This document shows, piece by piece, positions 9,901 to 35,150 of a stretch of DNA of 35,150 bases (position 1 is its first letter; each line of letters starts with the position of its first letter). This DNA comes from a virus. Position numbers and translations under genes: made by a program. The notes under the pieces were generated by a model. It was not told the origin of the DNA. It saw only the letters and a program-made list of their open reading frames with translations, and ran no database searches. The stretch lies in IMG/VR virus record IMGVR_UViG_3300029319_006793, positions 1 to 35,150 of that record; one strand, 5' to 3'.

Positions 9901-9901
9901 C

Positions 9902-11481: not shown

Positions 11482-11482
11482 T

Positions 11483-12466: not shown

Positions 12467-12478
12467 ATCCTTTTCTTT

Positions 12479-16591: not shown

Positions 16592-16592
16592 A

Positions 16593-18254: not shown

Positions 18255-18282
18255 ATTTTTCTTCCTTTAAATATTTCTATAA

Positions 18283-18311
18283 TATATAAAAATTTTCTCA
18301 AATAACCAAAT
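18283..18311 (-). promoter_or_regulatory. Repeated intergenic motif, copy B (putative promoter)
   Basis: On the minus strand this reads ATTTGGTTATTTGAGAAAATTTTTATATATTAT, matching copies A and C in the TTTGG, TTTGA and T-run elements. It fills the 62-base gap between the sialyltransferase-like gene and GDP-fucose synthase, the longest gap inside the glycan locus, ending about 29 bases before the ATG with AAAGGA between. A promoter for the second half of the locus is inferred. Confidence 0.5.
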
Positions 18312-18316
18312 CCGAA

Positions 18317-21222: not shown

Positions 21223-21233
21223 AATATTTCCTC

Positions 21234-22088
21234 TTATATTGTTTTACGTAATTTATTCCTAATTGGTAATTCACTTTCAGTTACCATTTTACTATCTGTT
21301 CCTAACATATCATTTATATCGATACATCGTTTTCTTAATTTATCCATTCCGATTACTTCCAAACTCGATTTTTGATCAGTTCCCCACATATCATGTGATA
21401 ATGTAATATGACGTTCAATTACTTTAGCTCCTAATGAAACTGCTATAACTGTTGGTTCAAGATCAGGTTCATGGCCAGAGTATCCAACTATACAATCATA
21501 TCTTTTTTTATAAAATGGAATCAATTTTAAATTTATTTCTTTTCTAGGTGTTGGATAACTAGAATTAGTATGCATTACGACTGGTGATTTACCATGTTTA
21601 CATATTTCATTAAATGCTGTATCAACTTCTTTTAATGTTGACATACCTGTAGACATTATTATCTGAGTTCCAGATAATGCTGATTGTTTCAATAATTCTA
21701 AATCTGTTATCAAAGCTGATGGTATTTTTATAAATGGAATATTATATTGCATTAAAAATTCTAATGAATCTAAATCCCATACAGATGCAGACCAATCAAC
21801 AGGTTTTTCAGAACTATATTTATCAATGTAATCATATTCTGATTTTTCAAACTCTACTTTGTATTTATAATCTAAATATGTCATGGTTCCCCAAGGTGTT
21901 TCTCTCATTACAGATTTTTGATGATCAGGAACACATACATCTGGATTTCTTTTTTGAAATTTAGCACAATCCCATCCACATGCATTTACTGCATCAATTA
22001 ATTTTTTAGTGATATTTAAATCTCCGTTATGATTAATACCTATTTCTCCTATAAAATACGGAGTATCAAGTTTATTAAAGTCTATCAT
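21234..22088 (-). CDS. neuB: NeuB-family nonulosonate synthase lacking the SAF domain
   Basis: Condenses an N-acyl hexosamine (or its 6-phosphate) with phosphoenolpyruvate to give a nine-carbon acid such as sialic, legionaminic or pseudaminic acid. EIGINHNGD (15-23), AKFQKRNP (42-49), PSALITDLELL, MSTGMSTLKEV, HTNSSYPTP, VGYSGHEPD and ERHITL follow in the NeuB TIM-barrel order, with the histidines of GYSGHE and ERHIT as predicted metal ligands. At 284 residues it stops where the barrel ends; cellular NeuB has about 345-350 with a C-terminal SAF (antifreeze-like) domain. It overlaps the HAD gene as ATGA, so the two are coupled. Confidence 0.9.
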   Translation of the reverse strand: MIDFNKLDTPYFIGEIGINHNGDLNITKKLIDAVNACGWDCAKFQKRNPDVCVPDHQKSVMRETPWGTMTYLDYKYKVEFEKSEYDYIDKYSSEKPVDWSASVWDLDSLEFLMQYNIPFIKIPSALITDLELLKQSALSGTQIIMSTGMSTLKEVDTAFNEICKHGKSPVVMHTNSSYPTPRKEINLKLIPFYKKRYDCIVGYSGHEPDLEPTVIAVSLGAKVIERHITLSHDMWGTDQKSSLEVIGMDKLRKRCIDINDMLGTDSKMVTESELPIRNKLRKTI

Positions 22089-22384
22089 ATTTCTTCTATT
22101 CTTTTAGTTTTATCACATATCAATAAATCATAGTCAGGTTTTTCGCCTACACTTAATTTATGATATTTACAACCCCATTTATCTAATTGTTTTTTAGTTA
22201 TATCAAACCAATCTATACCAGTTACAGATCCTCGTGCTGTATAATATGTTATTTTATTTCCTTCATCATACAGTTTATTTATTTTAGTTATATTTTTTCT
22301 AATTGGTATAGCATGTGGATAATATCTTTCATCTATATATCTACAAATAGTTTCATCAATATCTACGTATATATTTTTTACCAT
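22085..22384 (-). CDS. Small HAD-superfamily phosphatase, candidate nonulosonate-9-phosphatase
   Basis: This protein has 99 residues from MVKNIYVDIDE. This start is chosen because GGAGG lies nine bases before it; an ATG three codons upstream is only one base after that GGAGG. Catalytic D8-x-D10, T49 in YYTARG, K82 and D86/D91 in YDLLICDKT form the four HAD motifs in a minimal capless fold. It overlaps NeuB by four bases and follows the SDR by a few. Adjacent phosphatase and NeuB genes suggest removal of the 9-phosphate from a nonulosonate made from a 6-phosphate precursor, as known for eukaryotic and some bacterial pathways; this is inference. Confidence 0.75.
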   Translation of the reverse strand: MVKNIYVDIDETICRYIDERYYPHAIPIRKNITKINKLYDEGNKITYYTARGSVTGIDWFDITKKQLDKWGCKYHKLSVGEKPDYDLLICDKTKRIEEI

Positions 22385-23058
22385 GCCGTCCATCCTCCAT
22401 CAACTTTTATTTCTGTTCCTGTTATATAACTTGAATTTTCAGATGCTAAAAATTCAATCGCACCATATAATTCTTTTGCATTCATCATTCTTTGCAAAGG
22501 AGTCTGTAATGAATATTTAGTTTTAAATGTATTATCTTGTTCGTGATTTACACCTCCTGGTATAATAGTATTAACTCTTATTTTTGGTGCTAAATGTGTT
22601 GCTAAATGCTTTGATAACATTATCACTGCAGATTTTGATACACTATATCCAATATGTTTTTCATCGTCAACATATAAATCTTTTCTAGGTGAAACAACTC
22701 CATAAGTAGATGAAAAATTAATAATACTACCTTCTTTAAATGTTCGAGCATACTCTCTACAGACACAAAATAATGCTGTTATATTTGTATCTAAATATTG
22801 TTTAAATGAATCTAAACTTATGTTAAACAAGTTATTATCTGATGTCTTATCATCTATATGATGATTCAATGCAAATAAATTTACTAACGCATCTATATCA
22901 TCTGAAATATTTTTAAAATATGTTTTTACAAATAATTCGTCTGTTAAATCATGTCCAAGAGATAAATCAAGTCTATATACTGTATGACCGTTTGCCTCAA
23001 ACATATTACAAATAGATTTTCCAATCAAACCTTCTGAACCTGTAACTATTACATTCAT
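22378..23058 (-). CDS. Short-chain dehydrogenase/reductase (SDR), PtmA-like position
   Basis: Classical SDR of 226 residues, NAD(P)-dependent. TGSEGLIGKSI near 6-16 is the cofactor loop, NFSSTYG holds the catalytic serine, and Y-S-V-S-K is the Y-x-x-x-K. IIPGGVNHEQDNTF and ITGTEIKVDGGW complete the family pattern. SDRs of this kind are found with NeuB and DegT genes (for example PtmA in the Campylobacter legionaminate cluster). Its substrate may be a keto-sugar intermediate. It overlaps the HAD gene and ends with the Shine-Dalgarno of that gene. Confidence 0.85.
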   Translation of the reverse strand: MNVIVTGSEGLIGKSICNMFEANGHTVYRLDLSLGHDLTDELFVKTYFKNISDDIDALVNLFALNHHIDDKTSDNNLFNISLDSFKQYLDTNITALFCVCREYARTFKEGSIINFSSTYGVVSPRKDLYVDDEKHIGYSVSKSAVIMLSKHLATHLAPKIRVNTIIPGGVNHEQDNTFKTKYSLQTPLQRMMNAKELYGAIEFLASENSSYITGTEIKVDGGWTAW

Positions 23059-23059
23059 A

Positions 23060-24286
23060 TTATCCCCATAAAGTATTATCCCAAGAATCTGCGTCTTGAT
23101 TCTTAAAATGTTCTAATTTAAAATATTCTATTGTTCTTGTTAAACATAATGCTTGAAATTCTCTTTCTTCCGCATTAGCTTGATTACAAGTAAACTGCAT
23201 TATTCTTTGTTGTAACCATTCTGCTATAGGAGCACGGCCCCATCCTATTTTTTGATCTTTAAAACAAGGTTCATTATAAACTAATTGCCAAGCTGCATAT
23301 ATTCCATCTCCGCCAAATTGCATATACATTTTTCTAAACTCTTGCCAAGTAACTCCATATTGTTCACCGTTAAATACCGCTGCAAATGTATAATAAGAAT
23401 TTGTATATCCTGTCGGTGTTCTTTGTGGTATTAAAATATCAAACTCAGATTTTTTTATAACATCAAGATATGCCTTACCCATTAAAGTTCGTTTTAAACA
23501 TAATTCATCTATTTTTTCTACTTGAGCTAATGCAACTGCAGCACAAATTTCAGGTAATCTATAATTATACGCTAAAATATTATGACGTTTCCAGTCTGGG
23601 TTCTGAAATTTATCTCTTGATATCCTAACTTTACCGCTAGATGCTGTTATATTCTTGAAACCTACTCCTGCATATTGTCTCATAAATTTTGCAAGGTCAG
23701 GATTATCTGTAGTAACTATTCCTCCATCACCACATGATAAATGTTTAGAATTTTCAAAACTCCAACTTCCAACATCTCCAATTGTTCCAGCTATTCTACC
23801 TTTACGATCTGTAGCCATAAAACATTGAGCACAATCTTCAAGAACATATAAACCATTTTCTTTTGCTATTTTTTCTATAGCTTCCATGTCACACATTAAA
23901 CCGTATAGATGTACTACCATTATAGCTTTAGTCTTAGGTGTAATTTTCTTTTTTATATCTTCTGGGTCTATACAAAACGTATCCTTACGAACATCAACAT
24001 ATACTGGAGTTGCATTAGCATGTGTAACTGCATATCCACACATCGCAACAGTTAATGCTGGAATAATTACTTCATCACCTTCTCCTACTCCAAATGCTTC
24101 TAAAGCTGCATGTAACGTCGATGTTCCAGAATTGCATCCAATGCCATATTTCTGTCCATGCTTTTCTGCAAATAGATTTTCCAAACGCTCTGTAAACGCT
24201 CCTGTTTCGCTAGCTCCAAATCCATTTTGTAAAACTTCAGAAACATACTGCATTTCATTTGTTTGAAATCTCCAACCTTTGCCCAT
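23060..24286 (-). CDS. DegT/DnrJ/EryC1/StrS-family PLP aminotransferase
   Basis: Transfers an amino group from glutamate to a keto-sugar nucleotide. 408 residues from MGKGWRF; this start is chosen over one ten codons earlier because its ATG overlaps the previous stop as TAATG and has AAAGGA eight bases before it. GCNSGTSTLHAALEAFGVG (50-68), DEVIIPALT, LEDCAQ with D151 contacting the PLP ring, and SFENSKHLSCGDGG with K181 forming the Schiff base all agree. It could use the product of the PseB-like dehydratase and lies directly after the cytidylyltransferase. PseC/LegC-like roles are possible. Confidence 0.9.
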   Translation of the reverse strand: MGKGWRFQTNEMQYVSEVLQNGFGASETGAFTERLENLFAEKHGQKYGIGCNSGTSTLHAALEAFGVGEGDEVIIPALTVAMCGYAVTHANATPVYVDVRKDTFCIDPEDIKKKITPKTKAIMVVHLYGLMCDMEAIEKIAKENGLYVLEDCAQCFMATDRKGRIAGTIGDVGSWSFENSKHLSCGDGGIVTTDNPDLAKFMRQYAGVGFKNITASSGKVRISRDKFQNPDWKRHNILAYNYRLPEICAAVALAQVEKIDELCLKRTLMGKAYLDVIKKSEFDILIPQRTPTGYTNSYYTFAAVFNGEQYGVTWQEFRKMYMQFGGDGIYAAWQLVYNEPCFKDQKIGWGRAPIAEWLQQRIMQFTCNQANAEEREFQALCLTRTIEYFKLEHFKNQDADSWDNTLWG

Positions 24287-25026
24287 TAATTTTTCCTTTT
24301 TTGATTTTCTTTCCATGCCATCTCTAAATGATTATTGATACTTTTAACTTCTGGATTATCATTAATATATTGAATAATTTCCAATAATCCAAATGTTTTT
24401 CCTTGAAAGTGTTCAATAACATTTTTAAAAAATTCAAAGTCTTCTGTATAATCTAATGTCATGCGAATATCGTTCTTTTTGTATATGTCCGGTACATTTG
24501 TTATTTTAATAGGTTTGATATTGCTATCTTGTAAATATTTTACAATATTATGTGGTTCAATATCTTCAATATTCTTTTGTGAACATATTTTTTCTAATGC
24601 ATGTATATCAATCCCATACACGTCATTATATAATCCTTGGCCATCTATAAATGTATTAGGCATTGCATTAGAATCTAAATACTGTTTAAAACATATATCT
24701 GCAAGACCTGCTTCATAAAATAGATCATCACCATCAGCTGTTACAAAAAAGTTTATGTTAAATTCTTTACAAGCTCCTAACCATCTATCCCATTTATTTG
24801 TCGGATGGCCTTTAAAATATTTAATATTATTTTTTTTAGCTATAGAACATAAAATATCATCTTCATCTAGAGTTGTTGTACATAATATAATATTATCTGC
24901 TAGATCTGATTGTTTAACTCTTTCAATTAAATATTCTATTGTAGGACGTCCATTAATTTCTAATATTGATTTATCTACTAATCGAGTAGATCCTGTACGT
25001 ACAGTTACAAATATTGCTTTATTCAT
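24286..25026 (-). CDS. SpsF-like sugar nucleotidyl/cytidylyltransferase
   Basis: Activates a sugar acid or sugar phosphate with a nucleotide, most likely CMP for a nonulosonate. 246 residues from MNKAIFVTVR; an upstream codon gives a longer non-conserved tail and overlaps the previous gene, whereas this ATG lies two bases after its stop. RTGSTRLVDKSILEINGRP is the N-terminal nucleotide motif (R-x-G-S-T-R-L...K), and FVTADGDDLFYE holds the metal-site aspartates. The protein is in the SpsF group, which also includes glycosyltransferase-like members, so CMP-transfer is inferred from context with NeuB. Confidence 0.8.
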   Translation of the reverse strand: MNKAIFVTVRTGSTRLVDKSILEINGRPTIEYLIERVKQSDLADNIILCTTTLDEDDILCSIAKKNNIKYFKGHPTNKWDRWLGACKEFNINFFVTADGDDLFYEAGLADICFKQYLDSNAMPNTFIDGQGLYNDVYGIDIHALEKICSQKNIEDIEPHNIVKYLQDSNIKPIKITNVPDIYKKNDIRMTLDYTEDFEFFKNVIEHFQGKTFGLLEIIQYINDNPEVKSINNHLEMAWKENQKRKN

Positions 25027-25028
25027 TT

Positions 25029-25715
25029 TTATTCTTTTGTACATGTTAATTTTACATGACATTGGCCATGCCCGTCTGTAAATCCATGTTCTTTATCACG
25101 ACATTCGCCTGGTCTTGTATAAATTTCATGCCAATGTAACTTAAATCCATTATTTTCTAAACTTCTAATCCATTGCTCAGCTGATAAAGGCTGTATATGC
25201 AAATCATTTAAATTCCATTTAGTTATAATATCCTTATGAGTTACAGCTTGTTCGTATGTAGTTGATATATTAGCATAAAATACACCATCTGCTTTCAATA
25301 TTCTATATATTTCTTTTAATCCTTTAGTTCGATCATCTGGATGTAAATGTTCTAGAACGTCGGATGAATGTATAACATCAAAATAATTATCTTCATACGG
25401 AGTATTAGTAATACTACCTACAACACATGTTAAATCTTTTTCTATACATCTTTGTATTGCAGTTGTAGATGGATCAATACCATACACATTTAAATTAGTT
25501 TGTTTTTTTATCTTTTCTAAATAATATCCATATCCACAACCTATATCTAATATATTTCCTTGATCATATTTTGAAATGTCAATTTTATAATATTCAAAAT
25601 CATAAGCATCGCGACGAGGACCTCCAGGATGATATCCATTTTTATATAACTCTTCGTATACATCTGTATACATTGTAGGCCAATTACTACCAGTATCACT
25701 AAGAAATTTATTCAT
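25029..25715 (-). CDS. Class I SAM-dependent methyltransferase (UbiE/COQ5-like)
   Basis: This protein has 228 residues. NILDIGCGYGYYLEKI near 55-70 is motif I with D-I-G-C-G-x-G; VYGIDPS is the acidic motif II; DVIHSSDVLEHLHPDDR and LKADGVFYANI are motifs III and IV. Probable O-, N- or C-methylation of a sugar nucleotide or glycan. It overlaps the preceding glycosyltransferase gene by eight bases and ends two bases before the cytidylyltransferase. Its N-terminal 50 residues may form a small cap domain. Substrate is unknown. Confidence 0.86.
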   Translation of the reverse strand: MNKFLSDTGSNWPTMYTDVYEELYKNGYHPGGPRRDAYDFEYYKIDISKYDQGNILDIGCGYGYYLEKIKKQTNLNVYGIDPSTTAIQRCIEKDLTCVVGSITNTPYEDNYFDVIHSSDVLEHLHPDDRTKGLKEIYRILKADGVFYANISTTYEQAVTHKDIITKWNLNDLHIQPLSAEQWIRSLENNGFKLHWHEIYTRPGECRDKEHGFTDGHGQCHVKLTCTKE

Positions 25716-26733
25716 TTTCGGTTGTCTCTAACTCATTAAATATTTTATACCAATGGTAACATAATTTATCATAATCATATCCTTCAATAAATCGTTTACG
25801 TATTTCTAAATTTATACGTTCATTTAGTTCATCAAAATTTGACATAACGTAATCAATTTTTTCTTCTAGGTCTGACCAATCATATTTACATCCAATATAT
25901 GTTTTACCATCTTCATATATATTTGGAATTGTATGTACTAAATCTTGATTTGGTTTGATAAATATAGTTCCAAACTGCATACATTCAAAATCTCTAAAAC
26001 AAATTTCTCCCATACCAAATGGAGAAAATGATATTTTCGAATTCCATAAGTTTTTTAAGTATTCTTCTTTTGGTAGTCTATCACATACCATACTATAGTT
26101 CTGCTTTAACCCTTCTAATTTATCCCATAATCCTGCTCTATGATTTTGATAGAAATGATTATTTTGAGAATTGTGATCTGTATTCCAATCCATTTTACCA
26201 CGGAATATAGCACATATATCCAATGTTTTATTTTTATTTATTTCAGTAAATTGTTTATAATCAGGAACTAATTGACCTACATTCCATCCTGTAAATTTTA
26301 TACGATTCCATTCTTTTTCTGAAATATCATATGATAAATCTAAATCACTTCCATCTCCCCAGAACCATTTATTATGGGCATACGGAGTTTTATAATGTTC
26401 TCTAGATGGTAATAATTGATTTTTAAACATGTATATTGCATCACTTTGACGAAATACTTCTATACCACCCATTAACGATGTAGAATCAGATCCTTCAAAT
26501 AAAAAATAATCTCCTGTAATTTTTGATAGATTTTCTAATCCATAATCAACAGATTCTTGTAAAGATCTTTTCTTATCAATAAAATCATGCATACCAACAA
26601 ATAAATAATCAAAGTCATTTGATTCTGTTATATCTATACTGTAATCTCGCAATCGATTTTTGATAAACCAGAATGGTCTAAACGTTGGTTCATTCCTATA
26701 GGTAGTTGGATTGAGTATTTTTATTTTTATCAT
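25708..26733 (-). CDS. GT-B-like glycosyltransferase, exostosin/CgeB-type
   Basis: This protein has 341 residues. The C-terminal half has FSPFGMGEICFRDFECMQFGTIFIKP (about 236-261), where a glutamate-containing loop ahead of a Gly-Thr turn matches the donor site of exostosin- and CgeB-type transferases. The N-terminal half starts with short strands (IKIKILNPTTYRN), includes DYLFVGMHDF and FLFEGSDSTSLMGG, and is likely the acceptor domain. No membrane segment. It lies between a GT2 gene and a methyltransferase, overlapping the latter by eight bases. Confidence 0.7.
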   Translation of the reverse strand: MIKIKILNPTTYRNEPTFRPFWFIKNRLRDYSIDITESNDFDYLFVGMHDFIDKKRSLQESVDYGLENLSKITGDYFLFEGSDSTSLMGGIEVFRQSDAIYMFKNQLLPSREHYKTPYAHNKWFWGDGSDLDLSYDISEKEWNRIKFTGWNVGQLVPDYKQFTEINKNKTLDICAIFRGKMDWNTDHNSQNNHFYQNHRAGLWDKLEGLKQNYSMVCDRLPKEEYLKNLWNSKISFSPFGMGEICFRDFECMQFGTIFIKPNQDLVHTIPNIYEDGKTYIGCKYDWSDLEEKIDYVMSNFDELNERINLEIRKRFIEGYDYDKLCYHWYKIFNELETTENE

Positions 26734-26735
26734 AA

Positions 26736-27362
26736 CTATATTGTATCATAAAATGCATTTTGTTTTTCTTGTCTTCCAATATCTTTTGGATGATACAAAG
26801 AAAACTTTTCTTCTGCTGGAAGATTAGCAAATTTAGTATAACCTTTTAATTGTTCATGTACTGGTTTTATCCAATATATTTCTTCTTTATTTCTGTATAT
26901 TCTCATTTGCCAATCAGGAAAGTTAACCCAGCCCATATCATCGACTCTCCAACCCCATTTAGCAATATGCTGATCTGTAATACCAGCTACAGTATTTACT
27001 CTTGGCACCCAGAAAGCTTCTGTATCTTCATTTGCTTCTAAAATGAATGGAAGTGCCTCCATTAAATATTCATTTGGAATTTCATCTGCATCAATTTGAA
27101 ATATCCAATCACCATTACATGCTTTGTTTAAATTATTTTTATAAGCTGCAAAATTTTTATTTAACGCAAATTGATTTAAAGTATATTCATTATGTGGTTT
27201 AGATTCCCATCTTTCACAAACGTTAATAACTTCTGGTGTTGCATTCAAATCCATTTGAACTACAACTTGGTCTTCTTGTCTCTTATGTTCGAACAAAAAT
27301 GTTAACAGTCTTTCTATTTCTTTATGTTCATTACATACTGTAATTGCGTAACTTATTTTCAT
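26736..27362 (-). CDS. Family 2 glycosyltransferase
   Basis: This protein has 208 residues, shorter than the usual 250-300, but with the core complete: MKISYAITVCNEHKEIERLL as first strand and helix, VVVQMDLN as the second strand, NGDWIFQIDADEIPNEYL with D-A-D as the metal motif. A tail with HPKDIGRQEKQNAF follows. It may lack most of the acceptor-binding C terminus of longer GT2 enzymes. Soluble, with no membrane helix. The stop is two bases before the next gene. Donor sugar unknown. Confidence 0.83.
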   Translation of the reverse strand: MKISYAITVCNEHKEIERLLTFLFEHKRQEDQVVVQMDLNATPEVINVCERWESKPHNEYTLNQFALNKNFAAYKNNLNKACNGDWIFQIDADEIPNEYLMEALPFILEANEDTEAFWVPRVNTVAGITDQHIAKWGWRVDDMGWVNFPDWQMRIYRNKEEIYWIKPVHEQLKGYTKFANLPAEEKFSLYHPKDIGRQEKQNAFYDTI

Positions 27363-27368
27363 AACTAA

Positions 27369-27896
27369 TTATTTATTTTCTGCCACTTCTTTTACTAATT
27401 CATAAAATCTATTCAATGCATTTTCAAAATCATGGCCATTAAACTTTTCTGCATTTTCAACATCCAATCTAGTTGTATAATATTCATTTTCTTTTCCTGG
27501 AATTGGATACTTTAACCGTTCTTCTCCTACAATAGGAACAACTGTTGCTATTCTCCAATTGTAATCTAATGGATGAGCGCCTCCTCCATCACAATATAAC
27601 ATTACACCTGGCATTCTCATAAACGTTGGATACCATACTGAATTTAAATTCATATCTACCATTTGTAATCGTTTCATAAGATCCGAACAACCTTTTTCAT
27701 GTTCTGTACAAGCATCTGATCCTAATACTAATGTTGATCTAGTTACATATCCAGATTCCATACACATTCTATGTTCTTCACCTGTATCTGAATCTGCTTC
27801 TAATATAACACACATATTTCCAGTTACTGGAGATTTTTCATCGTAATCTAATTTTAAGTCACTTGTATTATTTGTTATTTCTATTTTGTTTTCCAT
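27369..27896 (-). CDS. Conserved-looking protein of unknown function, 175 residues
   Basis: An acidic N-terminal section (YDEKSPVTGNMCVILEAD) is followed by RMCMESGYVTRST, then CTEHEKGC, and a later block LYCDGGGAHPLDYNWRIATVVPI. Four to five cysteines in two pairs could bind a metal, though the pattern is not a standard zinc finger. No signal peptide or membrane helix. It lies between a GT2 and a GT4-like gene, with ATGA-type adjacency to the latter, so a glycan-locus role is possible but nothing in the sequence shows it. I recall similar proteins as anonymous entries in T4-like phages; no function can be given. Confidence 0.7.
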   Translation of the reverse strand: MENKIEITNNTSDLKLDYDEKSPVTGNMCVILEADSDTGEEHRMCMESGYVTRSTLVLGSDACTEHEKGCSDLMKRLQMVDMNLNSVWYPTFMRMPGVMLYCDGGGAHPLDYNWRIATVVPIVGEERLKYPIPGKENEYYTTRLDVENAEKFNGHDFENALNRFYELVKEVAENK

Positions 27897-29251
27897 TACA
27901 CCTCTACCTTTTTTAATTTTGGAAGTTTAATTTGTCCAGGATTGCTGCCTCCTACCTTTTTTAATTTTGGAAGTTTTAATGCAACCGCTTCTGGAACCTT
28001 AACATGCTTTTCAATAATTTCTGTAAACTTTTCTGTCATATGTTTCATAGTAAAGTTATCCTTTATATATTGTGGTTGCTTTCTAGAATTAGCAATATAT
28101 TTTTTATAATTCTTTTCGCAATCTTTAATAACTTGACTTGCATATTGATAATTTACAGTAAACCATTGAGACTCTTTTAGTATAAAATGATCAGCTGCTG
28201 ATCCATGTACCTTTGTCATTTGGCCTGGTAACAATACACAATGTTCAGGTTTTAAGAAATCTAACTGTCCTGACCATCCAGATGCAATAATTGGTTTACC
28301 TGTTATTCCAAATTCCATTAATGGTCTACCAAATCCTTCTCCTTTAGTAAATGATATCATTGCTTTTATTTTAGGATGATTATATAATGAATTCATTTCA
28401 TTACTTGTCATACCTCCATGTAATAAATAAACTTTTGGAGCTCTATCACCATACGGTTTTACAACTAAATTTATTTTTCTTAAACATTCATCTCTATCTA
28501 TGATACTAAATCCAGCTCCAGATGTTTTTAATAAAAGAGCTGGTTTATTATGTTTCGCAACATTTTTAAATGTTTCGCAAAAAGTTTTTATCATCATACC
28601 AACATCTTTTCTATCTTGGCCAATATCTCCTTTTATCCAATGACCGACAAATAAATAACATGACTTTTCTTTTATTTGAGATAATTCATCAACTACTGTC
28701 TTATCAAGTTCATTAGTTTTAAAGAATATATCAAGATCCAATCCTTCAAATAAAACTTCAATTGGAGTTTCAAGTTTTAATTCACCTTCTTTTTGATTTG
28801 TTTGTTGATTAATTCTATCATATTTAGTATTAACTAATCCATCTTTTGAATGTTCTGACGTTGTAATAATCAAATCCATTCTGTTACATCCTTCTATAAA
28901 CGAATGAGGAACTTGGTTTGTTTCAATACCTGCTGTAACACCGATATTAAATTTACCAGGCTTCATTGGTTTACCATCAGGAGATAAACAAAATTCATTT
29001 GGAACTGATACTTGAATAAAAATATCTGGTTGTCTTGTTATATTACCTTTTGCTAGTCTATCAATAATTAACTTATCTTTTTTATTTTGGATATTTAATG
29101 CATCCATAGGACAAGCACCCCATGGTAGCGATATAATATCAATATCATATTTATCCATTGCAATTAAACTATGAACTAAATCTCTTGTATGATCTCCATA
29201 ACCTGATCTAGTTGCAACTGGTCCTTGTACTACTATATATTTTTTTGTCAT
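27896..29251 (-). CDS. GT4-like glycosyltransferase with C-terminal KLPKLKK repeats
   Basis: This protein has 451 residues. GT-B enzyme: N-terminal ATRSGYGDHTRDLVHSLI, the acceptor domain with a helix after SGYG; the donor domain holds FTKGEGFGRPLMEFGITGKPIIASGWSG, the E-x(7)-E element of GT4 enzymes, near 300-330. The last 30 residues carry two copies of a (I/L)KLPKLKKV motif separated by GGSNPGQ; the same motif begins the next gene upstream. It overlaps that gene as ATGA. Predicted retaining transfer of a sugar from a nucleotide donor, in the cytoplasm. The tail is probably a docking or localisation signal (inference). Confidence 0.85.
   Translation of the reverse strand: MTKKYIVVQGPVATRSGYGDHTRDLVHSLIAMDKYDIDIISLPWGACPMDALNIQNKKDKLIIDRLAKGNITRQPDIFIQVSVPNEFCLSPDGKPMKPGKFNIGVTAGIETNQVPHSFIEGCNRMDLIITTSEHSKDGLVNTKYDRINQQTNQKEGELKLETPIEVLFEGLDLDIFFKTNELDKTVVDELSQIKEKSCYLFVGHWIKGDIGQDRKDVGMMIKTFCETFKNVAKHNKPALLLKTSGAGFSIIDRDECLRKINLVVKPYGDRAPKVYLLHGGMTSNEMNSLYNHPKIKAMISFTKGEGFGRPLMEFGITGKPIIASGWSGQLDFLKPEHCVLLPGQMTKVHGSAADHFILKESQWFTVNYQYASQVIKDCEKNYKKYIANSRKQPQYIKDNFTMKHMTEKFTEIIEKHVKVPEAVALKLPKLKKVGGSNPGQIKLPKLKKVEV
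27905..27980 (-). repeat. Direct repeat encoding the KLPKLKK motif
   Basis: Two copies of a 24-base unit (plus strand TACCTTTTTTAATTTTGGAA and four more bases, GTTT) begin at 27905 and 27953, 48 bases apart, which is 16 codons. They encode the two KLPKLKKV motifs at the end of the GT4-like protein. A third, more divergent encoding lies at about 30670-30700 at the start of the other GT4-like gene. Confidence 0.85.
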
Positions 29252-30708
29252 GCTATAACCCCTGTTTTATTAATATCTAATTCAATATCATTTACATCAT
29301 ATAATGTAAATCTTTTTCTTGGAGTCCATTTTTCAAAACATTCCTCCATGCATTCAATAAATCTTTTACCCATATTATGAGCAGACATATTTGTTTCTTC
29401 TCCCATAACCCATTCATGTCCTTCCATTCCATATGCATCTCTTGTTTCTTTATCCGTATCATACCATTCTTTAATGGCTAAAGCAACGTCTCTAAAATCT
29501 GCTCTATCATCAAATATATAAGGTGTCATTGGCGAACCTTGAACCGATCTATTAGTTGGAAATACTGGCTTTACCCAATTGGCATGCTTCTTATAAGTTG
29601 CATCATGATTAGTTGGAAAGTCTGTATTAAATTCTATCCAATCTCCATTTTCATCTTCGAATCTACAACCATCCTGTAATCCACCAGTTACATTATTTAC
29701 TATAGGAGTTCCAGCCATTAATGACTCGCACCATGAAATACCAAATCCTTCATTTGAAGCTATATTAACAGTTACATCTGCCATATTATACCAGAAGTTC
29801 ATTTCTTTTGGTTCAATACTTGCATCATGAATAAATACTTTATAATCAGGACAAAGAGCATTTTTTACAGCAACTAAGTCAGTTCCATTAGGATCTGATG
29901 TTTGAGTTTTCATAACTAGTATACATTTTTCTGCTTTTTCCTTTGGTAATTGATCACAAAAATGTTTATATGCTAAAATTAAATCACCTGGTTGCTTTCT
30001 TCTAATATTTCTGTTATTCCAGAAAATAACAAAATCAACTTTATTCTGAGCTTTGAATCCTGCAGACCATTGTTCAAATTCAGGTGCATATGGATGTAAT
30101 GCTGTTATAGGAAAGAATGAATTTGTATTCATACCATGCGGCACCCATTGTACTGCCCAATCTGGCTTAGGAAATTTTTGTAATACATTTTTTACGATGT
30201 TCTGAGTCTGTCTTGAAATATTCATTAATAAATCGCATGACTCATAAAATGGTTCATTCCAATGCGGATAAGGAAGATCATCCCATATATTATAATACAT
30301 TAAAGGAATATTCTGTCTTACTTCATGCTCCATGTTATATAACCATTGCCAGAATCTAGGATCTGTAAAATGTAATATTGCATCTGGCTTTTCTACTTCT
30401 AATAATTGATTTAATATTTGAGCATTACCATAACCATCACAACAATATATTTTACAGTAAGCATCATCTTTACCAGTTTGTTTATTTAAATCATCTGACA
30501 AATCAAATACCTTTCCTGCCTCAGGATGTTTAACTGCAGCTCCTAATTGTACCCAATCATATTTATCAATTGTATTTAATACAATTTCTTTACTCATTGT
30601 TCCTATACCAGAATATAATCTAAGATCATCTGATAACAATAAAATTTTCTTCTTTGTAGGTCTGTTTTTATTGATTTTTTTTAGCTTTGGTAACTTTATT
30701 GGTTCCAT
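29248..30708 (-). CDS. GT4-like glycosyltransferase with N-terminal KLPKLKK motif
   Basis: This protein has 486 residues. It begins MEPIKLPKLKKI, the same motif found twice at the end of the next gene. The GT-B fold follows with SDDLRLYSGIGTMSKEIVLN as the acceptor domain start and NEGFGISWCESLMAGTPIVNNVTGG (about 320-345) as the E-x(7)-E donor element. AGGAG lies about nine bases before the ATG. It is the first gene of the glycan locus in the transcription direction, 54 bases after a small membrane-protein gene. Predicted to act together with its neighbour on the same acceptor, inferred from the shared motif. Confidence 0.86.
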   Translation of the reverse strand: MEPIKLPKLKKINKNRPTKKKILLLSDDLRLYSGIGTMSKEIVLNTIDKYDWVQLGAAVKHPEAGKVFDLSDDLNKQTGKDDAYCKIYCCDGYGNAQILNQLLEVEKPDAILHFTDPRFWQWLYNMEHEVRQNIPLMYYNIWDDLPYPHWNEPFYESCDLLMNISRQTQNIVKNVLQKFPKPDWAVQWVPHGMNTNSFFPITALHPYAPEFEQWSAGFKAQNKVDFVIFWNNRNIRRKQPGDLILAYKHFCDQLPKEKAEKCILVMKTQTSDPNGTDLVAVKNALCPDYKVFIHDASIEPKEMNFWYNMADVTVNIASNEGFGISWCESLMAGTPIVNNVTGGLQDGCRFEDENGDWIEFNTDFPTNHDATYKKHANWVKPVFPTNRSVQGSPMTPYIFDDRADFRDVALAIKEWYDTDKETRDAYGMEGHEWVMGEETNMSAHNMGKRFIECMEECFEKWTPRKRFTLYDVNDIELDINKTGVIA

Positions 30709-30762: not shown

Positions 30763-30948
30763 TTAACCTTTCATTTTTCTGAAAATAAATTTATCTATTG
30801 GCCAGAAAATACAAGCTCCTACAAACTGAAATCCAATTACAGTTGCTAGATTAGACCATCCTAAGATATCTGAGAATAGATACATACATGGCCAGGAAAC
30901 TATTATACCTAATTGCCATTTTGCATGATATGTTAAATACTTTTTCAT
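30763..30948 (-). CDS. Small membrane protein with two helices
   Basis: This protein has 61 residues. Two hydrophobic segments, about WQLGIIVSWPCMYLF (11-25) and ATVIGFQFVGACIFWPI (35-51), are separated by a short loop, with basic ends (MKKYLTYHAKW and FIFRKMKG) that would face the cytoplasm. No enzyme motif is present. The ATG overlaps the stop of the SLOG-family gene by four bases. Its role in the replication module is unclear; an inner-membrane phage protein of unknown function is the safest call. Confidence 0.7.
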   Translation of the reverse strand: MKKYLTYHAKWQLGIIVSWPCMYLFSDILGWSNLATVIGFQFVGACIFWPIDKFIFRKMKG

Positions 30949-31346
30949 GTTATTATTGTTACGGGTTTTTTTAATTTTTTTGCATTTTTGATTGCACTTA
31001 AACTTCCATTTGCATTATCTCCATTTGGAATAAATGCCATCATAACATCACAAGCTCTTGCTATCAACATATTTCTATGATGAAACTGTGATACATGATA
31101 TGGTTTATCATAATAGTTATCTGACATTGCTGAATATAAATTTTTAGGTGTATGAGCAGGATTGAACTCTTGATAATTGATTCCAAACTCTAATGCATAC
31201 TTTCTTGCAAATTTATCAGCTCCATACTGAGCTCCACCTGAAACTATTATTAATTCACTTCCAAATTTTTGTTTCAGTTGAAATAACGCATCTTTTATTT
31301 TACGAACATTTTCGTAATGTCTACTTCCTATTATCGCTACTTTCAT
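30945..31346 (-). CDS. SLOG-superfamily (DUF2493-like) protein
   Basis: This protein has 133 residues from MKVAIIGSRHYEN. The ATG at 31346 is preferred because AGGA is eight bases upstream; a TTG two codons earlier has too little room. GSRxxxN (7-13) and IVSGGAQYGADKFARKYA (34-51) are the nucleotide-binding signatures of SLOG proteins, which bind nucleotides, NAD derivatives or nucleotide signals. The usual length of the family is about 120-150. It overlaps the 73-residue gene by 26 bases. A nucleotide-processing or sensing role in the replication module is likely; the ligand is unknown. Confidence 0.82.
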   Translation of the reverse strand: MKVAIIGSRHYENVRKIKDALFQLKQKFGSELIIVSGGAQYGADKFARKYALEFGINYQEFNPAHTPKNLYSAMSDNYYDKPYHVSQFHHRNMLIARACDVMMAFIPNGDNANGSLSAIKNAKKLKKPVTIIT

Positions 31347-31542
31347 TAACAAGATCCTTTACGGTGTTTGCAATTTCTCTTGCATTAGCAATATCTTCAA
31401 CTAGTTTAGCACATTCAGCAACAACATCTGGATGTTCTCCGATACCAGCTGAATTGCTCATGTAGTTTTGTAAATTTGCTACTGCTTTCGCTTCTTTCGC
31501 TTCTGCTTCTTTTAATAAAGCATTCATAATTAATTGACTCAT
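31321..31542 (-). CDS. Small helical protein, 73 residues
   Basis: Almost wholly helical: it begins MSQLIMNALLKEAEAKEAKAV and has heptad-like spacing of A, L and V with charged residues, suggesting a coiled coil and perhaps oligomerisation. No motif is recognised. A good Shine-Dalgarno (AAAGGAG) precedes the ATG by about six bases, which supports the call. Lies between the nuclease and the SLOG gene in the same unit. Confidence 0.7.
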   Translation of the reverse strand: MSQLIMNALLKEAEAKEAKAVANLQNYMSNSAGIGEHPDVVAECAKLVEDIANAREIANTVKDLVNESSDNRK

Positions 31543-31546
31543 AATT

Positions 31547-32479
31547 TTACTCCTTTATTCTATTTTTGGTTGGACATAAATCTGGTTGATCTTTAAATTC
31601 GCAATACTTGCAATTTTTATTGTTCTTACCAGCTACTGCGGCAAATTCTTTATCTCTATAAGATCCATCCGCATTAAAATTTAATTCTACAAATGATTGT
31701 ATTGATCGAGCTAATTTATTCCGAGTTGGTTTACCTGATGCTGGCATAAATTCTGTTATCCTTTTTTGTGGAAACATTGCTCCTTCAATTAATTTTCTTT
31801 TAACAATCATATACTTAATATCTATCTTTTCAACATCAAATCCATATTGTTCTGCAAAATATTTTTTATATAATACCAATTGGGATGTTTTTACTTTATC
31901 AGCTTTCTGATATTTATTCCAACCCATTGTCGATGTTTTAATATCAATAATAGTTATTTTACCATCTCGTTTATCTCTAACAACTACATCTAAATATCCT
32001 AACATCATAACATTATCATTATGTTCATTGACAGGATGATATATAGGAATTTCGATTCCTAATAACTCTTCATTCTTAGCTGAAAAATATGCTCCTCTTT
32101 TCTTTTTAAACCAATCTAATATTGCAACACCATCTGAATAAAATTCATTCATCTCAATATTTGTAGAAAAATGTTCTCCCATTTTTTCAACTGCTTCTTT
32201 ATATAAGGTATACATTTGATCTCGTAGATATTGATTAAGATCAATTTCATTAGCTTTTTTAACTGAATCATTAAACATAACAGTTAGATAATTTTGTAAT
32301 GTTTCATGAAAGGCAGTACCAAATATAGTATGTATTGATTGACTAAATGTTCGAAGATTTTTTACATATGCTAACTCCCAATGTTTTGGACATTGAGAAT
32401 ACATTGCATATTGTGAATATGATATTTTTCTATCTCCTTTCTTTGGCTCTCTCTGATTGTATTTTAGGAACTTATTCAT
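31547..32479 (-). CDS. PD-(D/E)XK nuclease, RecB/Cas4-like with four-cysteine Fe-S-type pattern
   Basis: This protein has 310 residues. SQYAMYSQC30PKHWE and FGTAFHE (H58) are the N-terminal part of the fold; GYLDVVV with D164 and IIDIK with D179 and K181 form the catalytic D...(D/E)XK; KTSQLVLYKKYF is the helical QxxxY motif. C30 with C290, C293 and C302 gives the four-cysteine set expected of Cas4/AddB-type Fe-S nucleases. Predicted single-strand exonuclease used in replication or recombination, or in host DNA processing. The ATG directly follows motif copy C with no Shine-Dalgarno, so a very short leader is likely. Confidence 0.88.
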   Translation of the reverse strand: MNKFLKYNQREPKKGDRKISYSQYAMYSQCPKHWELAYVKNLRTFSQSIHTIFGTAFHETLQNYLTVMFNDSVKKANEIDLNQYLRDQMYTLYKEAVEKMGEHFSTNIEMNEFYSDGVAILDWFKKKRGAYFSAKNEELLGIEIPIYHPVNEHNDNVMMLGYLDVVVRDKRDGKITIIDIKTSTMGWNKYQKADKVKTSQLVLYKKYFAEQYGFDVEKIDIKYMIVKRKLIEGAMFPQKRITEFMPASGKPTRNKLARSIQSFVELNFNADGSYRDKEFAAVAGKNNKNCKYCEFKDQPDLCPTKNRIKE

Positions 32480-32488
32480 ATATTAAAT

Positions 32489-32516
32489 ATAAGAAAAATT
32501 TTTCAAAGTACCAAAT
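32489..32516 (-). promoter_or_regulatory. Repeated intergenic motif, copy C (putative promoter)
   Basis: On the minus strand this reads ATTTGGTACTTTGAAAAATTTTTCTTATATTTAATAT immediately before the ATG of the nuclease gene at 32479. It matches copies A and B, with one or two changes in the first element. If TATATTTA is the -10 element, transcription would start at or within the start codon, giving a leaderless message; this fits the lack of a Shine-Dalgarno. Confidence 0.5.
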
Positions 32517-32950
32517 TATTTGCCCCATTTCTTTGCAGAAACTATTTGCGCTATAATACCATATACTGAAAGATCTTGGAATGTATCTAATTCAGATTCT
32601 CCAACATTATCTTTATGACCTAATATAATTAATTGTTTTAGTCTTTGTATTTTATCGTTTATTCTGAACCATAATCCAGTTAATGATAATTTAACGTCAT
32701 TATCTGTACTTAAATCAGTTCCTACTGATATATTACCTGGTCCATAATTTTTTTGTTTCTTACAAAATAAAACATATTGATCAGCCATTATATTTAAGAA
32801 TTCATCACATGTCTCTGGATAATTCTCTTGACAATATGTAACTGCTTCATCATCATGATCTTTCATTCGTTGTTGAAGTTGATTAAATACTACTTTATGC
32901 GTTTTGCTAGTTTCTTTAACTCTTCCTGGCGTATCTTTTATTGTTTTCAT
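32516..32950 (-). CDS. DUF1599/Nmad1-like protein (nucleotide-modification-associated domain)
   Basis: This protein has 144 residues. It contains CKKQKNYGPGNI (about 63-74), GLWFRINDKIQRLKQL (92-107) and an acidic end ESELDTFQDLSVYGIIA, the sequence pattern I associate with DUF1599 or nucleotide modification associated domain 1. That family has been predicted to act on modified nucleotides, but no reaction has been established as far as I know. It overlaps the gp62-like gene as ATGA, so it is made along with the clamp loader. The sequence is mainly helical, without a metal site or membrane helix. Confidence 0.7.
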   Translation of the reverse strand: MKTIKDTPGRVKETSKTHKVVFNQLQQRMKDHDDEAVTYCQENYPETCDEFLNIMADQYVLFCKKQKNYGPGNISVGTDLSTDNDVKLSLTGLWFRINDKIQRLKQLIILGHKDNVGESELDTFQDLSVYGIIAQIVSAKKWGK

Positions 32951-33399
32951 TTTAATAACTTTTTTATTTCTTTTTCTGTTTTACCATACGTTTTCATGAT
33001 ATCAACTAAACTTTGAATGCCTGAATTAGTACGTATAAATATATCAATATATTCTTCCGCTTCACGTGAATTGATTTCAAAATGATCTCTTACAAAATTT
33101 ACTAAATCTTTGTTATATTTATTCATCTTCTTTCCTTTGATATATTTTGCTCTTACATTAGCATTAGGCAGTATATCATAATATAATTGATAAACATGTT
33201 TTTTACTTAACGGACCAATTGTATATTGTTGTAATGCATCTACAGTTTCTATAAGATCAATATGCATAGACAACCATCTATTAATAATATATGGTGAAAA
33301 AGATTTTTGATCTGCTTCTGACAGCGAATGCCATTCTTTTTTCTTACTGGTTATTCCAGCAATATGATCAAATATTGTAGCTGGTTTATTTGTCTTCAC
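32947..33399 (-). CDS. 62: Clamp-loader small subunit (gp62-like)
   Basis: This protein has 150 residues. The pattern FDHIAGIT..KKEW..L then PYIINRWLSM near 45, an I-E-T-V-D-x-L-Q helix and a C-terminal Y-I-K-x-K-K segment with EAEEYIDIF agree with the small clamp-loader subunit of T4-like phages, which is about 130-190 residues. It has no ATPase motif; it binds the gp44-like ATPase and the clamp. The match is from recall of the family, not from a search. The gene overlaps the zinc-ribbon gene by 14 bases, in the usual order around the clamp-loader genes. Confidence 0.7.
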   Translation of the reverse strand: MKTNKPATIFDHIAGITSKKKEWHSLSEADQKSFSPYIINRWLSMHIDLIETVDALQQYTIGPLSKKHVYQLYYDILPNANVRAKYIKGKKMNKYNKDLVNFVRDHFEINSREAEEYIDIFIRTNSGIQSLVDIMKTYGKTEKEIKKLLK

Positions 33400-33634
33400 G
33401 GCCTTCTATCGGTCTAAATTCTTCGTTAATAAATCCACAGTCATCACATCTAAATGTTGGAACTGGAATAATTTGTTCTTTACCTGTCGGTGATAATAAT
33501 GCTGAAACGCGTTTAAAAGCATTTACTTGTCTGAAGAATTGACATCCACAGTTTTCGCATTTAATATCTTTCAAAGATGATGGATCTATATTTAATCCAC
33601 TTTGCCTTCCATCTGATCCTAATATTTTTGACAT
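33386..33634 (-). CDS. Zinc-ribbon protein, 82 residues
   Basis: Four cysteines in two pairs, C26-x-x-C29 and C63-x-x-C66, form a zinc ribbon with a 33-residue insert containing a hydrophobic basic segment FKRVSALLS. The N-terminal 20 residues are polar and possibly unstructured. Function is unknown, but its position between the clamp loader subunits is common in T4-like phages of aquatic origin and suggests a replication or transcription link. Start supported by AGGAG about 10 bases upstream. Confidence 0.78.
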   Translation of the reverse strand: MSKILGSDGRQSGLNIDPSSLKDIKCENCGCQFFRQVNAFKRVSALLSPTGKEQIIPVPTFRCDDCGFINEEFRPIEGREDK

Positions 33635-33643
33635 ATCTGTCTC

Positions 33644-34573
33644 CTATTTTAATTCGTTAATTATTTTTACCATTGTAGCCATAATATGTAATTCTTTATC
33701 AACTGCAAATGCATCTTGATATTGAGCTTCTGCTAAAATTAAAATAACACTTGCGATATGGCCTTTAGCATAATTATCAATTTCATCGAATAAAAATTTA
33801 TATAATGCAGTGAAATCTTTTACTTTACTATCATTAATGAGTTGTCTAATATCTTGAAAACAAGTTTTTTTATCATTTGTTTTTTGAAAGATATCTAATA
33901 GTTTAGTCATATAATTTGCTTGTACTAAACTTTCTTTATCAATTTGTAATTTTCCATCAATCACTTGTCGCTGAGCTGAATTAAGAACTCTTCTTATATC
34001 TGGATATCCATTGTTAATTAATGTTACCAAATCATTCATTTCAAATTCAATCTTTTGTTCTTTTAATATAGCAACAATTCTTTTTGCAACTTCTTTTTTA
34101 TTAGGTGGAGTTATTCCAAATACCTGACATCTAGATTGAATTGGATCAATAATTTTTTCAACATAATTACATGTTAGAATAAATCTAGTTGTTTTAGAAA
34201 ATGTTTCCATTAAATTTCTTAACGCAGCTTGACCGTTAGGAGTCATATAATCTGCTTCATCTAATATAACAATTTTCCATCTTTTAAATCCAATTGTACT
34301 TGCAAAGTTTTTTACTTTGGTTCTAACTGTCTCAACATTGTTTTCATCGGATGCATTTATATACATAAGATCTGCATCCACATTACCTGCAATAATTTTG
34401 GCTAATGTTGTTTTACCAGTACCTGCACCTCCATAAAATAATAAATGCGGAACATCTCCATTTTCAAGATATAACTTTACTTTGCTAATAACTAACTCGT
34501 TACCAACATAACCATCTAATGTATCGGGTCTAAACTTTTCTACCCATAATGTATTTTCTACGTTTCCAAACAT
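33644..34573 (-). CDS. 44: Clamp-loader large subunit, AAA+ ATPase (gp44-like)
   Basis: This protein has 309 residues. The N-terminal WVEKFRPDTLDGYVGNE is the RFC box, G48-G-A-G-T-G-K54-T55 the Walker A, D105-E-A-D108 the Walker B (DEAD) and S147-R-C149 the arginine-finger region of clamp loaders. In T4, four gp44 plus one gp62 load the gp45 clamp onto primed DNA. Length is close to gp44 (319). The gene begins two bases after the clamp stop without a Shine-Dalgarno, so translation is probably coupled to the clamp. Confidence 0.95.
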   Translation of the reverse strand: MFGNVENTLWVEKFRPDTLDGYVGNELVISKVKLYLENGDVPHLLFYGGAGTGKTTLAKIIAGNVDADLMYINASDENNVETVRTKVKNFASTIGFKRWKIVILDEADYMTPNGQAALRNLMETFSKTTRFILTCNYVEKIIDPIQSRCQVFGITPPNKKEVAKRIVAILKEQKIEFEMNDLVTLINNGYPDIRRVLNSAQRQVIDGKLQIDKESLVQANYMTKLLDIFQKTNDKKTCFQDIRQLINDSKVKDFTALYKFLFDEIDNYAKGHIASVILILAEAQYQDAFAVDKELHIMATMVKIINELK

Positions 34574-34574
34574 A

Positions 34575-35150
34575 TTATGCAGCTTGTAATTGTACTAAAT
34601 AGTACGTTGATGAATAATCTTTTCCTGTAAATGTAACTCTTGCTAATCCTGCTTCAGATACTTCAATACAACCTGATTCAGCATCTTTATTTGCAACTAA
34701 TATTTCTTTAAATAGATTAGCTGAAAAACAAGTTGCTTTTAAATCGCTAGCCTCTCCTTCTGGAGTAGTTGGCCATGTTATTCTATTTGTATTCAAAGTT
34801 GAATAATTTAAAATCATATTAGTTCCTAATGCATCACTTTCGATTGCAAAATTTTCTGTTTCTGGCAATGCATTTTTAGATTTAACAAATTTGCTTGCAA
34901 AATCTTTTGTTAATTTAATTTTAACATTAAAATCAGGCAATTGTTTCATTGCAGGAACTTGTCTTATAACTGATAAATCAGCTAACATAAATGTTACATC
35001 AGTTGTTTTATCTGATAAGTTTATTGAGAATGCAGTACCATCTGCATTATTAACTCTTAATGTTACATCTTCATCTAATGCAGTTAACAACTTAGTTAGT
35101 TGAGAAGTTGCATAAACTCCTAATGTTACATCTTCAATATCAAAATTATC
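34575..35150 (-). CDS. 45: Sliding clamp (gp45-like), 5' end outside window
   Basis: The open frame runs to the right edge without a stop, giving 191 visible residues. The sequence (INLSDKTTDVTFMLADLSVIRQV, DFNVKIKLTKDFASKFVKSK, FKEILVANKDAESGCIEV) shows repeated strand-and-helix units of the sliding-clamp fold as in T4 gp45 (228 residues); the first approx 30-40 residues are missing. A TTG inside the frame at 35090 is not needed as a start. Gene order clamp, gp44, zinc ribbon, gp62 supports the call. Confidence 0.85.
   Translation of the reverse strand, partial: DNFDIEDVTLGVYATSQLTKLLTALDEDVTLRVNNADGTAFSINLSDKTTDVTFMLADLSVIRQVPAMKQLPDFNVKIKLTKDFASKFVKSKNALPETENFAIESDALGTNMILNYSTLNTNRITWPTTPEGEASDLKATCFSANLFKEILVANKDAESGCIEVSEAGLARVTFTGKDYSSTYYLVQLQAA

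Follow-up and report, generated by a model that had tools for sequence, protein, structure and literature searches.

A DpdA-like transglycosylase gene paired with a GT4-like glycosyltransferase beside the replication block of a marine T4-like phage hints at sugar-decorated viral DNA

We analyzed a 35,150-base stretch of viral DNA (the window), which comprises bases 1 to 35150 of the 36,748-base IMG/VR record IMGVR_UViG_3300029319_006793 (G000:C1, numbered as the window) and is a fragment of a marine T4-like phage. On the minus strand, the genes run from a sliding clamp gene (gp45), cut by the window end, through the clamp loader large subunit gene (gp44), a zinc-ribbon gene, the clamp loader small subunit gene (gp62), an Nmad1-like gene, a nuclease gene, a 73-amino-acid (aa) gene, a SLOG gene, and a 61-aa gene to the glycosyltransferases of a glycan locus (Table 1), an order that recurs across IMG/VR loci far above chance. 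An earlier model reading of the letters alone (the sequence-only reading) had placed an Nmad1-like, a SLOG, and an Fe-S nuclease gene between the clamp loader and the glycan locus; Pfam and PHROG matches and conserved residues confirm both the placement and the domains, and the 73-aa, 61-aa, and zinc-ribbon genes that it omitted are added in Table 1. Immediately upstream of gp45, still within the record that contains the window, is a complete DpdA-like gene with a glycosyltransferase gene beside it. The same pairing is found in unrelated phages and suggests that the viral DNA may carry sugars. We lean toward a reading in which accessory or core genes of the replication block stand beside a separate, putatively DNA-modifying DpdA-like/glycosyltransferase pair. 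The closest named relatives by protein are Microcystis phage Mel-JY01 and Flavobacterium phage immuto; by DNA, named relatives have only short stretches in common with the record. Counts of loci refer throughout to distinct loci, with near-copies removed, unless near-copies are stated.

Table 1. Features of the window and of the adjoining end of its record (ORF, open reading frame)
Feature	Coordinates	Strand	Evidence or remark
Glycan locus	4186..30708	-	ORFs; Pfam of ten of them
61-aa protein	30763..30948	-	ORF; two hydrophobic stretches by eye
SLOG protein (YAcAr/DprA-like Rossmann), 135 aa	30945..31352	-	Pfam, alignment; probable start ATG 31346
73-aa protein	31321..31542	-	phrog_1811, 7.6e-15; only some relatives carry it
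RecB/Cas4-like PD-(D/E)XK nuclease, 310 aa	31547..32479	-	PF12705, 2.4e-20; four-Cys Fe-S type signature
Nmad1/DUF1599-like all-helical protein, 144 aa	32516..32950	-	Exchangeable slot gene
Clamp loader small subunit, gp62-like	32947..33399	-	phrog_225, 2.5e-18
Zinc-ribbon protein, 82 aa, between gp44 and gp62	33386..33634	-	CxxC...CxxC; position conserved
Clamp loader large subunit, gp44-like	33644..34573	-	phrog_168, 1.6e-80
Sliding clamp, gp45-like, cut by window end	34575..35150	-	phrog_223, 3e-6
DpdA-like gene, upstream of gp45	35321-36505	-	Outside window, same record
Glycosyltransferase gene end (last 79 codons)	36507-36746	-	Outside window, same record

The nuclease, SLOG, and Nmad1-like proteins look like accessory-to-core members of a replication block of the T4 type (polymerase gp43, clamp gp45, clamp loader gp44/gp62). 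In the nuclease, residues H58, D164, D179-x-K181, and Q200 and cysteines C30, C290, C293, and C302 were invariant or nearly so (16 sequences), supplying the catalytic residues and the four cysteines of a PD-(D/E)XK RecB/Cas4-like Fe-S nuclease; it is not a member of the Cas4 equivalog (TIGR00372; 16.2 bits, cutoff 65). The SLOG protein exceeded the cutoffs of PF10686 YAcAr (40.2 bits, cutoff 28.2) and PF02481 DprA (36.6 bits, cutoff 29.6), and its GSR and GG-GAD motifs agree with YAcAr membership; it lies outside the DprA equivalog (TIGR00732; 26.3 bits, cutoff 191). We scored the neighbors of the nuclease gene at 96 distinct loci. Of the 79 that extend at least 1,600 bases upstream, 76 have gp62 on that side; of the 76 that extend at least 1,000 bases downstream, 72 have SLOG on that side, and in 52 of these 72 the nuclease and SLOG genes overlap or stand no more than 30 bases apart. 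These counts indicate that both genes are stable parts of the block. Judging from its family, the nuclease would most likely process DNA ends in replication-coupled recombination, and the SLOG protein would bind a nucleotide or protein partner.

In one clade without DpdA (L046, L049, L050, L052, and L057), the nucleotide-binding motifs of the SLOG protein were lost, while a block of the form N-x-A-x-T...NLYSGM...YYxKPxHxxQ was largely kept, suggesting that the protein's conserved core is this block rather than the pocket. A link between pocket decay and DpdA loss is no more than a lead: all five DpdA-less loci with visible sites were decayed but belong to this single clade, and true decay was also seen in the DpdA-bearing loci L129 and L098. 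Two other loci, L025 and L155, were scored as decayed solely through a narrow pattern or truncation.

The window Nmad1-like protein matched DUF1599/Nmad1 (PF07659) with an E value of 3e-4 and 21.5 bits, below the curated cutoff of 25, and matched phrog_1485 at 1e-11. The label is weak for this protein alone, yet it holds for the group, because 33 of 33 aligned relatives matched DUF1599 at E ≤ 0.01 (best, 4.7e-6). Two close homologues from metagenome-assembled genomes (MAGs) exceeded the DUF1599 cutoff (30.9 and 29 bits). In cellular assemblies, relatives were found on five MAG contigs only, and three of the four longest (L161, L162, and L164) have clamp-loader genes beside Nmad1, so these are probably viral contigs.

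Across the 88 distinct loci in which gp62 and the nuclease enclose a slot, Nmad1 occupied the slot in 54, another small protein in 33, both in none, and neither in 1. Nmad1 is thus missing from 34 loci that keep gp62 and the nuclease. The alternative protein belongs to DUF3310 (PF11753), for which five of six scanned members exceeded the cutoff (59.8 to 67.5 bits, cutoff 24); three of four scanned also matched the "nucleotide kinase" family phrog_236 at 2.7e-24 or better. The 33 members include the divergent L099 and L100, of which L100 had no Pfam match and weak nucleotide-kinase PHROG matches. Besides sharing the slot, Nmad1 and DUF3310 proteins often start with a similar tail (M..IKD...V.F.E, seen by eye). 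When the two were compared by hhalign, only this N-terminal tail aligned (E = 0.002, probability 14%), and the folded domains did not.

The Nmad1 model was all-helical (mean predicted local distance difference test [pLDDT] score, 80), and conserved residues comprised K65, Y69-G70, N73, R96, N98-D99-K100, R103, E118, D122-T123, and D126. No solved structure matched this protein convincingly: Foldseek returned no match at E ≤ 0.001 (best, 3.1), a second structural comparison gave Z scores of at most 7.4, within the chance range for helical bundles, and a sequence search of the PDB gave nothing below E 0.6. The strongest functional hint is the either/or slot with DUF3310. The slot gene most probably helps to supply nucleotides, and we give about even odds to the Nmad1-like protein being a nucleotide-metabolism protein that serves replication. 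It would most likely work on nucleotides close to the replisome and stand in functionally for the DUF3310 protein. Two considerations weigh against this: "nucleotide kinase" is a database label for the slot alternative, and of 55 proteins put through an ungapped test, only 6 showed the shared tail at p ≤ 0.01 and 13 at p ≤ 0.05, with a tail profile built from nine chosen long-form tails and short-tailed DUF3310 proteins excluded. It is improbable that Nmad1 is a MazG-type nucleotide pyrophosphatase. The all-helical model with its conserved acidic and basic residues would suit such an enzyme, as would a weak whole-domain structural match to AF_0060 (2p06; Z 4.8, 78 of 84 residues), a protein classed with the all-alpha nucleoside triphosphate pyrophosphatases; yet the hhalign probability was 0.4% (against three MazG sequences only), a Pfam scan of 33 Nmad1 members gave no MazG match, and the EExxE/ExxD residue pattern of MazG is absent from Nmad1.

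The Nmad1 gene also has a history of its own. In the gp44 tree, the window grouped with L023 and L028, and a grouping of the window with K was rejected (approximately unbiased [AU] test, p = 5e-77). In the Nmad1 tree, the window fell inside another clade (support 100/100), and a grouping of the window with W was rejected (AU p = 4e-10), each tree excluding the placement given by the other. DNA identity to L023 was 72% in Nmad1 versus 84 to 94% in gp62, gp44, gp45, the nuclease, and SLOG, and dropped to 40 to 51% around the first part of Nmad1, between flanks of 84% (gp62) and 86% (nuclease). Identity to L007, from the other clade, was 86% in Nmad1 versus 73% and 81% in the flanks. The conflicting trees and the identity profile together indicate that Nmad1 has been passed around within an otherwise syntenic block and that the window allele came from another lineage. 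The zinc-ribbon gene, 88% identical to L009 and about 68 to 70% to L023, resembles other clades more closely than its neighbors do and is a candidate second exchanged gene.

The sequence-only reading had suggested that Nmad1, SLOG, and the nuclease may form one modification, sensing, or anti-defence set. In such a set, Nmad1 would modify or read nucleotides, SLOG would sense a defence signal, and the nuclease would destroy host or competing DNA. The three genes are adjacent, the Pfam name of DUF1599 is "nucleotide modification associated domain 1", and Nmad1 alleles have been exchanged between lineages, as arms-race genes often are. There were also weak superfamily matches of SLOG and the nuclease to the PADLOC defence library (ShosA 7e-7, Aga Cas4-like 1e-5, and DruK 5e-5), but these reflect shared folds only, and Nmad1 had no match there. 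Nmad1 is dispensable for the other two, DUF3310 taking its place in 33 of the 88 loci, and it accompanies replication genes in two different contexts, since in a second virus set it lies directly upstream of gp32 and uvsX (both confirmed by tblastn). No defence or counter-defence partner was seen for the three genes. Among 49 distinct loci with both sites visible, Nmad1 and DpdA were both present in 30, DpdA alone in 12, and Nmad1 without any DpdA in 7, so Nmad1 and DpdA combine freely, and Nmad1 appears neither required for nor confined to DNA-modification genes. We regard the three-gene set as highly improbable.

The DpdA-like gene is separated from the window by a scaffold gap. The window stops exactly at a run of 10 Ns (35151-35160; L002 1152-1161) inside gp45, so the truncation of gp45 looks technical, and in L023, which has no Ns, the gene order across gp45 and DpdA is the same as in the window record. 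At 44 of 44 distinct loci with gp45 in view, gp45 lay directly downstream of the DpdA-like gene. The protein carries the motifs GDSGGFQ and HVLGIS, the former within the DSGG[FYL]Q pattern expected of a tRNA-guanine transglycosylase (TGT)-type barrel. An AlphaFold2 model of the L023 protein (99% identical to that of the window record; mean pLDDT, 67) matched only TGTs and bacterial DpdA below 0.001 in Foldseek (TGT 7b2i, 7e-7; DpdA 7ui4, 5.6e-6), and in a second structural comparison human TGT was matched with a Z score of 20.6 over 297 residues, with TGTs in 50 of the 50 rows listed. PADLOC gave a DpdA match at 9e-5, and phrog_10773 was weakly matched by window-group proteins. Because curated DpdA models match only weakly, we call the protein DpdA-like. 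Two alleles, about 53% identical, occur in this virus group.

All of the distinct DpdA loci that extend far enough (29 of 29) have a GT4-like glycosyltransferase gene directly upstream of the DpdA-like gene. Residues R208, E212, K213, and E300 (R-x3-EK / E) were invariant in 17 rows, as expected of a GT4-type enzyme, and a PDB profile search returned the GT4-type enzymes WlaC (4e-5), Gtf1, and TarM. When 50,697 phage records were searched with two divergent allelic queries (about 23% identical), both returned the same 20 records, and all 20 carry a DpdA-like gene: 16 were found by tblastn with the protein of the window record, and those of X1, BUCT-ZZ01, and ACP17 by phrog_10773 (1e-87 to 1e-168), ACP17 being two records of one genome, one inspected and the other a duplicate. 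The two genes were adjacent or one gene apart in 15 records, namely, 11 Pseudomonas records (by match coordinates; Paride inspected), X1, BUCT-ZZ01, and ACP17. Since the 20 records represent about six lineages, they do not amount to 20 independent events. We found no description of a glycosyltransferase paired with DpdA in the literature searched, whose coverage was incomplete and does not prove absence from print. FolE and the DpdA-like gene of BUCT-ZZ01 flank a second glycosyltransferase-like gene (68503-69846; L190 3007-4350; PF13692, 3e-5).

Two allelic forms of the stretch orf139-glycosyltransferase-DpdA-gp45 are found in the window's virus group, with at least six type changes on the best gp44 tree (forms compared: G001 49714-50964 versus G002 106362-107489, plus the adjacent small gene and gp45). 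The DpdA and glycosyltransferase types matched in 30 + 25 loci and mismatched in 3 of the 58 loci with both genes, near-copies included; after removal of duplicates, 16 + 14 matched and 3 did not.

The structural similarity to tRNA TGTs also fits an explanation in which the DpdA-like enzyme, with FolE, QueD, and QueE, serves tRNA (queuosine) or protein and the glycosyltransferase is part of the glycan machinery. TGTs were the best structural matches, a Cap10-CdnD complex with a deazaguanine-type modification (9ntn) was among the matches, and Hutinet et al. (2019) describe phages that may raise queuosine in host tRNA (PMC6884629). We consider this explanation unlikely, given that bacterial DpdA (7ui4) ranked second in Foldseek, that the DpdA-like gene is placed between polymerase and clamp genes, and that unrelated phages also carry the glycosyltransferase along with DpdA-like genes, although the stretches of them that we examined contain no glycan locus.

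Genes for a base precursor lie nearby in relatives. Past the polymerase gene, G001 encodes a phosphoribosyltransferase, FolE (PF01227, 8e-45), GroES (by eye), QueE (phrog_2076, 9e-48), and QueD (phrog_2389, 9e-32). Searches for QueD, QueC, and the Pfam TGT family covered 20 records, most of them fragments. QueD exceeded the cutoff in 8 of 13 searched DpdA-group records and in none of the 7 that lack DpdA, whereas QueC exceeded it in 0 of the 20 records and in 0 of 5 named phages with the gene pair, control genomes being positive. Because QueC was not found, the inserted base would most likely be 7-carboxy-7-deazaguanine or a product of it. T4-style hydroxymethylation was tried as a candidate and rejected, with thymidylate synthase (TS)-family matches in 2 of 12 records (G004 and G005), both outside the DpdA group. 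A purine-type phosphoribosyltransferase gene stands beside FolE/QueE in two unrelated phages (G001 53882-54385 and BUCT-ZZ01 71302-71763) and might recycle the guanine that the transglycosylase sets free.

We tentatively propose, at somewhat less than even confidence, that glycosylated 7-deazaguanine occurs in the DNA of a scattered family of tailed phages and that DpdA with its dedicated GT4-like enzyme forms a swappable, two-allele cassette. FolE, QueD, and QueE would make 7-carboxy-7-deazaguanine; the DpdA-like enzyme would exchange guanine in finished (replicated) DNA for this base or a derivative; and the paired GT4-like enzyme would then add a sugar to the inserted base. The sugar nucleotides could be supplied by the host or by the glycan locus, where several sugar-nucleotide enzymes are encoded. 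Glycosylated queuosine, which occurs in tRNA, is an analogue of the proposed DNA base; to our knowledge, no sugar-bearing 7-deazaguanine DNA base has been described before. The sequence-only reading had also raised the idea of modified phage DNA, perhaps bearing sugars: the DpdA-like and glycosyltransferase genes upstream of gp45 lend that idea support, though not with the three-gene set as the source.

Several observations count against the proposal. Gene order, fold, motifs, co-occurrence, and QueC nondetection are observed, while the substrate, the product, and the order of steps are conjectural. No record among the 20 matched Pfam TGT at E ≤ 0.1, and the protein is not a member of the NCBIfam DpdA equivalog (NF041059; 18.4 bits, cutoff 200). 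The window-type DpdA allele is without the C/C/C/H residues, presumably the TGT zinc site, that the other allele keeps towards the C terminus. The window-group glycosyltransferase scored 20.8 bits, below the Pfam cutoff of 26.4, which only the X1 and BUCT-ZZ01 relatives exceeded. In Phosso, Ep032, and three PhiXhv records, the two genes are far apart. Co-switching of the allele types, with only three supported independent pairs, may be mere linkage, and the link between the window and DpdA spans the 10-N gap within gp45. Finally, host QueC could complete preQ0.

This last point leads to a more ordinary 7-deazaguanine phage, in which the host provides QueC, preQ0 is the base that DpdA inserts, and the glycosyltransferase has nothing to do with DNA. 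Such phages are well known; the preQ0 route is described as FolE-QueD-QueE-QueC-DpdA, and 76 phages are reported to encode DpdA without synthesis genes (PMC6884629). We rate it as rather doubtful, since the glycosyltransferase family occurs only in DpdA-bearing phage records (all 20) and the gene stood directly upstream of DpdA at every locus with room for it.

Further features of the block vary among relatives. The 61-aa gene keeps its place after SLOG in many relatives (58 to 98% identity, tblastn), and its protein had no Pfam or PHROG match; the zinc-ribbon protein had weak zinc-ribbon Pfam matches, below cutoff. In many relatives (L030, L034, L043, and others; G001 44505-46127), a GroEL-like gene separates gp44 from gp62, and a GroES-like gene stands close to FolE; no GroEL-like gene interrupts the clamp-loader pair of the window. 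One lineage (L071 to L073, L075, and L076; cluster 11) encodes a DUF2061-like small membrane protein (by eye) immediately upstream of Nmad1. The glycan locus encodes glycosyltransferases (the first two kept in relatives), UDPG/GDP-mannose dehydrogenase, GDP-mannose dehydratase, NeuB, a cytidylyltransferase, a DegT aminotransferase, and a carbamoyltransferase, and its carbamoyltransferase and NeuB genes (18982-22088) suggest carbamoylated and nonulosonic-acid-type sugars. In Mel-JY01, the block resembles that of the window (gp44-zinc ribbon-gp62-Nmad1-...-nuclease-...-glycan genes) but differs in that MetK and other genes are inserted, an S-adenosylmethionine synthase gene lying directly after Nmad1 (78787-79989; L159), and in having no DpdA between gp43 and gp45. 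The immuto block is similar in its order DUF3310-nuclease-glycan genes but has no clamp-loader genes in the 20.8 kb examined.

Known systems resemble parts of the proposed cassette, as far as excerpts of the cited reports describe them. Phage 7-deazaguanine systems (9g, CAjan, and nt-1) likewise combine a DpdA-like TGT-fold enzyme with FolE, QueD, and QueE; here, by comparison, QueC was not detected, the DpdA subfamily is divergent, and a GT4-like neighbor is constant (PMC6884629). Mycobacterium phage Bipper, described in the same source, lacks only QueC, and its authors suggested 7-carboxy-7-deazaguanine; unlike the gene pair here, no glycosyltransferase is mentioned for it in the excerpts (PMC6884629). 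In CmoX/CmoY carboxymethylcytosine hypermodification, a base carboxyl likewise serves as a handle for further decoration, but the base is cytosine, the chemistry is methyltransferase based, and the decoration is by amide ligation rather than glycosylation (PMC12783734). The T4 alpha and beta DNA glucosyltransferases also place sugar on modified phage DNA bases, but they act on hydroxymethylcytosine (PMC13216743), and no TS-family hydroxymethylase was found in the near relatives G001 and G002.

For the replication block, the either/or slot of DUF1599 and DUF3310 offers a tangible way to approach what DUF1599 does, since little more than the label "nucleotide modification associated" describes this family. 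For the cassette, the gene pair is present in cultured phages (PA5oct, Paride, X1, ACP17, and BUCT-ZZ01), so the prediction can be tested now by mass spectrometry. If the glycosyltransferase acts on the base inserted by DpdA, sugar decoration would join the known 7-deazaguanine modifications of phages, which would bear on restriction, type IV enzymes, and escape from CRISPR.

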